The notes beneath the pieces are model-generated. The model made no database searches, was not told the DNA's origin, and worked only from the letters and a program-made list of their open reading frames with translations. The position numbers and the translations under genes are program-made. From Olsenella sp. An270 (GTDB lineage Bacteria > Actinomycetota > Coriobacteriia > Coriobacteriales > Atopobiaceae), in assembly GCF_002159735.1 (NCBI RefSeq), contig NZ_NFJF01000009.1:1-64000 (forward strand): a stretch of DNA of 64,000 nucleotides, in the 5' to 3' direction. This document shows positions 31,496 through 39,275 of the stretch, one piece after another (position 1 is the first letter of the stretch; every line of letters begins with the position of its first letter).

Positions 31496-32293
31496 CTAGC
31501 GCGTTCGGGTGCCCTGAACCGGGGTGAAGGAAGTAGTGACCTGGTCGCGCAGCTCGCCCTGGACCGTCTCGTCGATGCCTGTGATCGTACACGAGAAGTT
31601 GACGCCGGTCGCGGACTGCGTCTTCTCCCAGACGAAGGTCATGAACGAGGCCACGTCGCCGGTGGGCTTGAGGAACCCAAAGAGGGTCGACTGCTGCATG
31701 CGGCCGTCCTCCCCCACGTGAACGCTCACGTGGTAGACCACCGTGTCGATGTTGGGGTTGAGCAGCGCGTTGACGGCCAGCGCCGTGGCCTGGACCTGGG
31801 AGGTCGAGAAGCACTCGAGCGCGCTCGAGGAGCTGGTGTCGATGACGCTCACCTCGATGCGGCCGGTGTTCTCGTCGGCCTCCTGGACCGTGAAGTCGGC
31901 GGGGAACTGCGTGAAGCCGTCGCCCCACTCGACGCCGCCGGAGAGCGCGTCTGCGACGGTGCGCACGCTCGCGGTGTCGGCGAGGTGGGCGGTGTTGAGG
32001 CGGCGGACGACGCCAAAGGCCACCTGGCCGGCCACGACGAGGACGAGGAACGCCAGGACAAAGATGACCGCGGTGCGCGTGATGACCTTGCTGACGTCGG
32101 AACCGGAGGGGTCCTCGCCGGAGAGCGGGTCAACGTCGACGGAGACGCCCTTCTCGCGGCGGTGCGCACGCTGACGACGGGCGCGCTCCTCGTCGGAGTG
32201 GCCGCTGTGGTCGACGGTCGAGAAGAGCTTCTCTGCCTCGTCGGCCGAGAGCGCGCCGCGCTGGGGGCGAACGTTGTCGCGCCTGTTGAACAT
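31496..32293 (-). CDS. Single-pass membrane protein of unknown function
   Basis: 265 residues; ATG with GGGAGGGGAGGG upstream. A charged cytoplasmic part (1-78, rich in Arg, Asp and Ser), one membrane helix (about 80-103, AVIFVLAFLVLVVAGQVAFG), and an extracytoplasmic domain with repeated beta-type stretches (IEVSVIDTSSSSALECFSTS, VVYHVSVHVGEDG). Two cysteines in the outer domain could pair. I do not recognise the family. About 107 bp separate its stop from the start of the zinc-ribbon gene, so they may be cotranscribed. Confidence 0.65.
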   Translation of the reverse strand: MFNRRDNVRPQRGALSADEAEKLFSTVDHSGHSDEERARRQRAHRREKGVSVDVDPLSGEDPSGSDVSKVITRTAVIFVLAFLVLVVAGQVAFGVVRRLNTAHLADTASVRTVADALSGGVEWGDGFTQFPADFTVQEADENTGRIEVSVIDTSSSSALECFSTSQVQATALAVNALLNPNIDTVVYHVSVHVGEDGRMQQSTLFGFLKPTGDVASFMTFVWEKTQSATGVNFSCTITGIDETVQGELRDQVTTSFTPVQGTRTR

Positions 32294-32417
32294 GCCCTCC
32301 CCTCCCGACAATGCCTCGCTCCGCAAGTATACAGCGCCGACCTGCCGAGAAGCGCCCCGGCGCAGGTCGCGGGAAACGTCCACAAGCGGGGCGGGAGCGG
32401 GGCGGGAGCGGGGCGCG

Positions 32418-32702
32418 ATCCAGGAATCGCGGCCCTTGTCGGCTGCCGCTCTAGGAATCCGGGGCTTGTCACGGACGCGTCTAGGAAACGCCGCCTTTGT
32501 CCGGGATGACTCTAGGAAAAGCGCCCCTTGTCCGGCGCGGCTCTAGAAAATGCCGCCCTTGTCCGGCCCAGACGACCAGCGGGCGGACAAGGGCGGCGAT
32601 TCTTAGACGGTCCGCGGACAAGGGCGGCGTTCTTTAGAAGGGCTGACGACAAGGGCGCGGATTCCTAGACGCGCGGCGGACAAGAGCGGCGGTTCCGGGA
32701 CG
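32418..32702. repeat. Nine-unit inverted array of 31-32 bp repeats
   Basis: Five units in forward orientation (about 32418-32572) with the pattern TCTAGGAA, GCCGCC, CTTGTCCGG, then four reversed units (about 32584-32702) with GGACAAGGGC, GGCGATTC, TTAGAC. Period 30-32 bp, individual units 65-90% alike. The inner units of the two halves are the closest pair and could fold into one long hairpin. It fills most of the gap between the membrane-protein gene and the ABC exporter. Not CRISPR: there are no unique spacers of constant length. Confidence 0.85.
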
Positions 32703-32712
32703 GCCGCGCGCC

Positions 32713-34458
32713 CTACGCGAACTGCATCTCGAAGTAGCGCGCGTACGTGCCGCCACGGGCGAGAAGCTCCTCGTGGGTCCCGCGCTCGACCACGCGGCCG
32801 GCCTCGATGGTCGCGATCTCGTCGGCGCCGCGGATCGTGGACAGCCGGTGCGCGATCACGAGCGTGGTCCGCCCGCGCGAGAGCTCCTCGAGCGACTCCT
32901 GGACCGCCTGCTCGGACTCGTTGTCCAGCGCGCTCGTGGCCTCGTCAAAGATCAGGATCGGCGGGTTCTTCAGGAACACGCGCGCGATCGCGATGCGCTG
33001 CTTCTGGCCGCCGGAGAGGTGGCTGCCGCGCTCGCCGACCTGCGTCTCGTAGCCGTCGGGCAGGCTCTCCACAAAGTCGGCGATGTTGGCACGGCGCGCG
33101 GCGAGGCGGATCTCGGCCGCGGTGGCGTCGGGGCAGCCGTAGGCGATGTTCTCGGCAATCGTGCCGTCGAAGAGGTAGACGTCCTGCTGCACCAGGCCGA
33201 TGGCCTCGCGCAGGCTCCGCTGCGTGACGTCGCGCACGTCCTGGCCGTCGATCGTGACGGAGCCGGAGTCCACGTCGTAGAAGCGGGGCAGCAGGGCGCA
33301 CGTGGTGGACTTGCCGCCGCCGGACGGGCCCACGAGCGCGATGGTCTCTCCGGGGCGGATGTCCAACGTGAGGCCGTTGATGACCTCGTCGTCCTTCTCG
33401 CCCTGGGCGTCACGGGCGTCGGGGTACGTGAAGTGGACGTCGTCGTAGCGGATGGCGCCCTCACTCACGCGCAGCGGCTTTGCGCCGGGACGGTCCAGGA
33501 TCTCCGGCTGCTCGTCCAGCACCTCGCAGAAGCGTCGGAAGCCCGCGATAGCCTTCTGGAAGGTCTCGGTGAAGTCCAGGATCTGCGTGATCGGCGCCGT
33601 GAAGAGCGAGATGTAGAGGGCGTAGGTGGCGAGGTCGGCCGCCTCCATCTGACCGCGCGCTATCAGCCAGCCGCCAAGAACCACCACAACGGTGTTCAGC
33701 GCGCCCATCATGACGGCAATGGCGGCCTGGTAGCGGCCCATGGCGCGATACATCCGGGTCTTGGAGTCGAGGTAAGCGTCGTTGCTCGCGCGGAACTTCT
33801 CGCCCTCCGCGTCCTCCGCGGCAAAGCCCTTGACCACACGCATGCCGCCGAGCGCGTCCTCCAGACGGGAGTTGACGCCGGAGATGCGCACGCGGTTCTC
33901 GGTGTAGACGGCGCGCATGCGCACGTTGGCCCACACGTTGTAGGCAACGAGCAGGCACGCGATGAGCGCGAGGACGGCCGTGAGCGGCGCGTTGATCGTG
34001 GAGAGTATCACGAAGCTGCCTGCAATCTCCACGACACCTATGAGCAGGAACTCGGGGCCGTGGTGGGCTGCCTCGGAGATGTCAAAGAGGTCGGAGACCA
34101 GGCGGCTCATGAGGTCGCCGGAGCGGTTGCGGTCAAAGAACGCAAAGCTCTGGCGCACATAGGCGTCAAAGAGGTCCTCGCGCATGCGGCTCTCCATGCG
34201 CGCGCCCATGACGTGGCCCCAGTAGATGACAAAGTAGCGGCAGACAAAGCGCAGCGCGTACATGGCCACGAGGCCGACGGCGATGTAGGCCAGCACGCCC
34301 AGGATGGCGTCCGGGCCCTCGGTGAACAGGCCGCCCGCCAGGCCGCGCAGGATCTGCGGGAACGCCAGGTCCACGGCGGCCACCGTGACGGCGGCGACGA
34401 TGTCTATGACAAAGAGGTGCAGCTGGCCCTTGTAGTAGGTGAGGAAGCGCTTGAGCAT
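32713..34458 (-). CDS. ABC transporter, fused permease-ATPase (exporter type)
   Basis: 581 residues; ATG with a GGAG upstream. Six membrane helices in residues 15-300, then a nucleotide-binding domain: Walker A VGPSGGGKST, Q-loop LVQQDVYLFDG, signature LSGGQKQR, Walker B ILIFDEATSALD, and H-loop IAHRLST. It is a half-transporter and should work as a homodimer or with a partner; no second half-transporter adjoins, so homodimer is likely. Substrate not predictable. Confidence 0.9.
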   Translation of the reverse strand: MLKRFLTYYKGQLHLFVIDIVAAVTVAAVDLAFPQILRGLAGGLFTEGPDAILGVLAYIAVGLVAMYALRFVCRYFVIYWGHVMGARMESRMREDLFDAYVRQSFAFFDRNRSGDLMSRLVSDLFDISEAAHHGPEFLLIGVVEIAGSFVILSTINAPLTAVLALIACLLVAYNVWANVRMRAVYTENRVRISGVNSRLEDALGGMRVVKGFAAEDAEGEKFRASNDAYLDSKTRMYRAMGRYQAAIAVMMGALNTVVVVLGGWLIARGQMEAADLATYALYISLFTAPITQILDFTETFQKAIAGFRRFCEVLDEQPEILDRPGAKPLRVSEGAIRYDDVHFTYPDARDAQGEKDDEVINGLTLDIRPGETIALVGPSGGGKSTTCALLPRFYDVDSGSVTIDGQDVRDVTQRSLREAIGLVQQDVYLFDGTIAENIAYGCPDATAAEIRLAARRANIADFVESLPDGYETQVGERGSHLSGGQKQRIAIARVFLKNPPILIFDEATSALDNESEQAVQESLEELSRGRTTLVIAHRLSTIRGADEIATIEAGRVVERGTHEELLARGGTYARYFEMQFA

Positions 34459-39207: not shown

Positions 39208-39275
39208 CGCCCGACAAAGGTGCCGGGGTTGTTTGTCAGGTTCCTGACAAACAACCCCGGCACCTTTGTCGGGCG
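39208..39275. repeat. Perfect 33-bp inverted repeat between dnaB and purA
   Basis: Arms 39208-39240 and 39243-39275 are exactly complementary, with a 2-base centre (TT). The arm begins CGCCCGACAAAGGTGCCG and ends GTTTGTCAGG. It lies from 9 bp after the dnaB stop to 52 bp before the purA start. It could terminate dnaB transcription, but no T-tract follows, and the loop is too short for a normal RNA hairpin; arm identity of this length suggests a mobile hairpin element. Confidence 0.85.

Follow-up and report, generated by a model that had tools for sequence, protein, structure and literature searches.

What is the inverted array of short repeats that lies behind an ABC exporter gene in Olsenella sp. 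An270? We studied it within a window, meaning the whole analysed stretch of 64,000 nucleotides (contig NZ_NFJF01000009.1, positions 1 to 64,000). A first-pass annotation of this window had described a nine-unit inverted array, which we confirmed, with a period of 30-31 bp. The array covers 282 bp (32419-32700) and is made of five plus-strand units resembling TCTAGGAAnnCGCCGCCCTTGTC, followed by four minus-strand units reading as the reverse complement, with start-to-start steps of 31, 30, 31, 31, 44 (across the flip), 31, 31 and 31 bp. Seven of the nine units had at most three mismatches to the 22-bp consensus, whereas dinucleotide-preserving shuffles of the window yielded none. The units and their neighbours are the following:

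31496..32293, minus strand: downstream gene without Pfam match, with 125 bp between its start and the array
32419..32440, plus strand: unit 1, TCCAGGAATCGCGGCCCTTGTC, outermost left
32450..32470, plus strand: unit 2, TCTAGGAATCCGGGGCTTGTC, one base shorter
32480..32501, plus strand: unit 3, TCTAGGAAACGCCGCCTTTGTC
32511..32532, plus strand: unit 4, TCTAGGAAAAGCGCCCCTTGTC
32542..32563, plus strand: unit 5, TCTAGAAAATGCCGCCCTTGTC, inner left
32564..32585, no strand: centre of 22 bp between the inward-facing arms, the inner pair being 66 bp across
32586..32607, minus strand: unit 6, TCTAAGAATCGCCGCCCTTGTC, inner right
32617..32638, minus strand: unit 7, TCTAAAGAACGCCGCCCTTGTC
32648..32669, minus strand: unit 8, TCTAGGAATCCGCGCCCTTGTC
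32679..32700, minus strand: unit 9, TCCCGGAACCGCCGCTCTTGTC, outermost right
32713..34458, minus strand: ABC exporter (ABC_membrane and ABC_tran domains), its stop codon 12 bp from the array

The array fills most of the gap between the exporter and the next minus-strand gene. It had been placed before the exporter, wrongly: it lies 3' of that gene, whose minus-strand reading frame terminates at 32713, and upstream of the gene starting at 32293. A perfect 11-bp tandem repeat (AGCGGGGCGGG, 2.8 copies, 32385-32415) adjoins it. The annotation had also proposed a common ancestry with EcoRI-core palindromes and with the dnaB-purA hairpin through a shared GACAAG core. This found no support in the sequences, since the hairpin has neither GACAAG nor CTTGTC and the palindromes (CGTGAATTCACG) lack the core as well; the window contains 48 occurrences of the hexamer. 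The palindrome itself has five copies there, at 2720, 4738, 10849, 35496 and 35549 (the last two 53 bp apart), is absent from the other 247 kb of source-genome loci searched and has no sequence kinship to the arrays. A long palindrome adjoining purA (GACAAAGGTGCCGGGGTTGTTTGTC...GACAAACAACCCCGGCACCTTTGTC, 39212-39272) is also different from them.

The window array belongs to a large family. BLAST against its own 2.01 Mb genome (G000) gave 147 matches in about 40 places, and the unit pattern with at most three mismatches matched 149 + 144 times, against 1 + 2 times for the reversed control. A position weight matrix run on the fetched loci produced 359 hits (3 in reversed sequence), from which 46 arrays were parsed, distributed over many contigs. 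Of the 293 pattern hits, 277 fall within the fetched loci. The remainder corresponds to two or three arrays left out of the parsing, and the search of the rest of the genome that the annotation had proposed leads to a total of about 48. This total may be exceeded, several contigs ending in arrays, and exact counts of arrays and units depend on our in-house gene caller and motif thresholds.

The geometry of the family is very regular. Units faced inward in every parsed array. Of 259 same-strand spacings, 248 measured exactly 31 bp. Across the centre, 33 of 43 arrays had a start-to-start distance of exactly 44 bp, and five more had 75 bp, with one unit missing. The inner pair of units covers 44 + 22 = 66 bp. 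From this centre outward, unit occupancy in arrays with the 44-bp centre was 1.00,.97,.80,.65,.43,.09 and 0; arms never exceeded six units and were often unequal, e.g., 2+5. The unit is asymmetric and about 22 bp long, TCTAGGAA-N5-GCCCTTGTC, and its consensus TCTAGGAATCGCCGCCCTTGTC, as read by us, has no dyad. The TTGTC core is nearly invariant and conservation is about 65% in mid-unit, while the 9-bp spacers are near background. Spacing by whole helical turns across spacers of indifferent sequence is what characterizes a phased array of DNA-binding sites, and both features are seen here. The annotation had rejected a CRISPR reading, rightly so: such arrays have repeats in the same orientation and unique spacers of about 25-40 bp, whereas here the orientation flips and the spacers are 9 bp long.

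All 46 parsed arrays are intergenic and lie close behind genes, the nearest stop codon being at a median of 25 bp and start codons at least 59 bp away. Convergent genes flank 11 of the 40 classifiable arrays; among 252 pairs of neighbouring genes in these loci, a background that includes short gaps, 30 are convergent. The neighbouring genes include the housekeeping genes rpoC, mfd, glnA, murG and coaD. Hairpins resembling intrinsic terminators were found at 18 of 47 array 3' ends and at 10 of 106 others, and there is one weak site of this kind, a hairpin with a T-run, in the window array; as such hairpins are not depleted beside arrays, the latter do not seem to be a simple replacement for terminators. 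Many relatives have no array at a given site, so that no single site is essential. Two other features of gene ends were seen along the way. A short motif (CTTCTCGCC / GGCGAGAAG) recurs just 3' of stop codons in many species of the genus (e.g., L144-L173), with 45 occurrences in 50 kb of intergenic and 91 in 261 kb of coding sequence in the source-genome loci. At the 3' end of rpoC (L040:2467-2619, G000 contig C9), RpoC (beta') appears to bear a C-terminal domain that matches PF03118 (E 3e-8), the RNA polymerase alpha C-terminal domain. An acidic tail comes after it, and three related loci have this tail too, at 98-99% identity.

Could the uniformity of the units result from copying or gene conversion? 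Spacers of different arrays were identical at 34% of positions, which is background, and only four between-locus matches reached 45 bp at 88% identity or more; we rejected this possibility on both grounds. The annotation had considered that the unit might be absent elsewhere and diverge randomly in relatives. We found instead some 48 arrays in the genome, and orthologous arrays of different species share about 87% identity at motif positions, 67% at flexible unit positions and about 61% in spacers (pairs with overall identity above 0.6, the same-species pair L039/L144 being removed from the pool). Spacers are random, units become rarer towards the outside and no array is a copy of another. Each unit thus appears to be maintained near the consensus at its own place, as expected of DNA-binding sites. 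Whole units can nevertheless be gained or lost. In Thermophilibacter provencensis, a 6.8-kb PTS block (L058:9384-16187) is 97% identical to G000 contig C9 with flanks at about 80%, and the two arrays that bound it are only 83-84% identical to those of G000, with whole units gained or lost; this difference indicates that arrays change fast. Judged from these identities, the PTS operon block is a recent horizontal transfer. We discarded the idea of a mobile cassette delimited by the two arrays, given the low identity of these end arrays and since we recognised no gene for mobility within the block that the two genomes share.

The annotation had also suggested looking for the consensus in related genomes. 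Within the genus, the motif of the source genome is present in bulk in three more species, namely G003 ('Olsenella uli' An820), G023 (Atopobium sp. UBA1382) and G014, and in two arrays of T. provencensis. Nearly all arrays of these other carriers lie in regions that have an array in G000 too, and the comparison of close species shows vertical inheritance of the arrays among them. Further Thermophilibacter species have inward-facing arrays built on other motifs. In one of them, G040, we parsed 26-27 arrays, which are made of TCCCGGAATCGGCGAGGTTCCCC and have a period of 41 bp (98 cases) or 31 bp (12 cases) and a centre of 43 bp in 18 arrays, the others being mostly 22, 32, 33 or 53 bp; its inner pair measures 43 + 23 = 66 bp, exactly as in G000. 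Departures from the commonest spacing are mostly of about 10, 21 or 31 bp, i.e., whole turns. The suggestion of a helically phased multi-site protein array made in the annotation is thus well supported by the number and exact phase of the arrays, by exceptions that mostly preserve whole turns and by a second species with the same geometry on another motif. By eye, the motifs of G005 (CTTAAGGATCGCGGCCCGTCCGG), G019, G045 and G006 look alignable to those of G000 and G040, and at the window site the direct repeats of several species have periods of 30, 40 or 41 bp. In a three-protein tree, the 31-bp species share a clade with G006 (30 bp), G040 and G004 (41 bp) and G024 (no array seen), and 41-bp dialects are also found outside this clade, several supports being low. 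This placement suggests that the 41-bp period is older than the 31-bp one. Used as queries, three dialects had no match in 109 genomes from 34 other genera of the family, in a search that would miss differing dialects.

Positions are partly conserved between dialects. Excluding the seed locus, six of 26 arrays of G040 are in the same gene gap as an array of G000, and three more have one or both flanking genes in common with it in another arrangement; of the six sites of G006 other than the seed, three match (murG-murC, coaD and Hsp20). In our judgement, this exceeds what about 48 arrays placed in some hundreds of eligible gaps would give. Other repeat families fill the murG-murC, mfd and window-site gaps in further species, indicating that such gaps are generally tolerant to repeats. 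Depending on the species, the murG-murC gap (L184-L212) measures between 67 and 946 bp; it contains several unrelated repeat families, and G003 has three tandem arrays there.

The annotation had alternatively imagined an RNA folding into one long rod, and transcribed arrays could indeed act as a regulatory RNA, a terminator or an RNase target. The predicted fold of the window array is very stable (-172.7 kcal/mol, z -8.5) and arrays are located at 3' ends, but such stability follows from the presence of inverted sites alone. The arms of a same array are no more complementary, beyond the motif, than arms taken from different arrays: pairing at variable columns was 0.399 against 0.384 for swapped arms in 31 G000 arrays with a 44-bp centre (z 1.7, 14 of 300 permutations as high) and 0.375 against 0.383 in 19 G040 arrays (z -0.5). 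These negative arm-swap tests in two dialects speak against a cruciform as well. The arms are moreover often unequal, exact helical phasing is meaningful only on double-stranded DNA, and the sole Rfam hits were eukaryotic models (microRNA and snoRNA) with scores well under the gathering threshold, so that we consider the RNA rod highly improbable. It is also unlikely that the arrays are operators of a regulon, activating or repressing the promoter of the downstream gene from upstream. It is true that in two gaps, murG-murC and the window site, a promoter-like sequence that seems by eye to be conserved across species follows directly after the array, and unit number shows a slight polarity with respect to transcription (108 units on the side of the downstream gene versus 91). 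However, no promoter is expected between the convergent genes that flank more than a quarter of the classifiable arrays, the neighbours examined are unrelated housekeeping genes and arrays keep their distance from start codons.

A non-autonomous mobile repeat of the REPIN/BIME or MITE type, spread by a perhaps lost transposase and tolerated at gene ends, is a rather doubtful explanation. The arrays resemble REP/REPIN and BIME elements with their RAYT in being extragenic, inverted, present in many copies, lineage-specific and often at gene ends, and in sister species their intergenic sites can be taken by several unrelated families of repeats. Furthermore, 28 of the 31 genomes of the genus encode one to six RAYT-like Y1 transposases (L224-L243). 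However, REPINs have by definition a palindromic core and commonly show compensatory changes between arms (PMC3116915), whereas the arrays combine a non-palindromic 22-bp unit and a strict helical period with at most six units per arm, and have neither compensatory pairing nor a linked RAYT. The RAYT-like genes that we read have other short hairpins at their sides instead of arrays, in several cases with GGGGACwGTCCCC or GGGGTCTGTCCCC as the hairpin core, and Y1_Tnp was not found in G000 (98.6% complete assembly), the genome with the most arrays of all. On these grounds we rejected mobilisation by a RAYT. Array positions are also largely common to species sharing a dialect. In an array of transposon ends, the outermost repeats should be the best conserved; here the inner ones are, and occupancy falls outward. 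Orthologous empty sites, where target-site duplications might be read, were by eye too divergent for clean alignment.

Several known systems offer partial parallels. Plasmid centromeres and iterons (sopC, parC, RepA) are tandem protein-binding sites of 20-40 bp with helical spacing, to which the arrays are similar, but the latter are dispersed over the chromosome in dozens, face inward and each abut a gene end. A classical partition centromere has one or a few sites near the origin or beside parAB, and this dispersal argues against it; no Par or Rep genes were recognised by eye among the listed flanking genes. Matches to plasmids, phages or viral contigs were not obtained either. Eukaryotic TTF-I/Reb1 terminator or insulator arrays likewise place repeated asymmetric sites behind transcription units; ours are bacterial, two-armed and known here from sequence. 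The DNA uptake sequences of Neisseriaceae are a motif spread over the whole genome that differs in dialect between lineages and is often inverted where genes end, but the present motif is 22 bp long, arranged in phased arrays and present in hundreds and not thousands of copies.

We thus favour the view that the window array, like the other members of its family of about 48, is probably a chromosomal platform for a putative sequence-specific DNA-binding protein at the borders of transcription units. We infer the protein, its cooperative binding and the border role from the features described above. Each asymmetric unit would bind one module of the predicted protein on double-stranded DNA, whole-turn spacing would align the modules along a single side of the helix, and binding would spread outward from the inner pair acting as core. 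Given their location shortly 3' of stop codons and at a distance from promoters, the arrays most likely mark transcription-unit borders, where they could insulate or end transcription and supercoiling or tether the chromosome. More tentatively, this may be a genus-wide system of chromosome organisation or transcription borders, in which the putative protein and its phased inward arrays have co-evolved, motif and period (41 to 31 bp) having diverged from species to species, with the 66-bp inner pair and some positions retained. We found no description of such arrays in the open-access literature searched, which does not prove novelty. If bound as predicted, they would provide these Atopobiaceae with uniform, strongly phased platforms throughout the chromosome, behind housekeeping genes and with species dialects within one genus. 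Such platforms would imply a factor for borders or chromosome architecture that this literature does not describe, and the dialects would form a natural series for the joint change in specificity of a DNA-binding protein and dozens of its sites.
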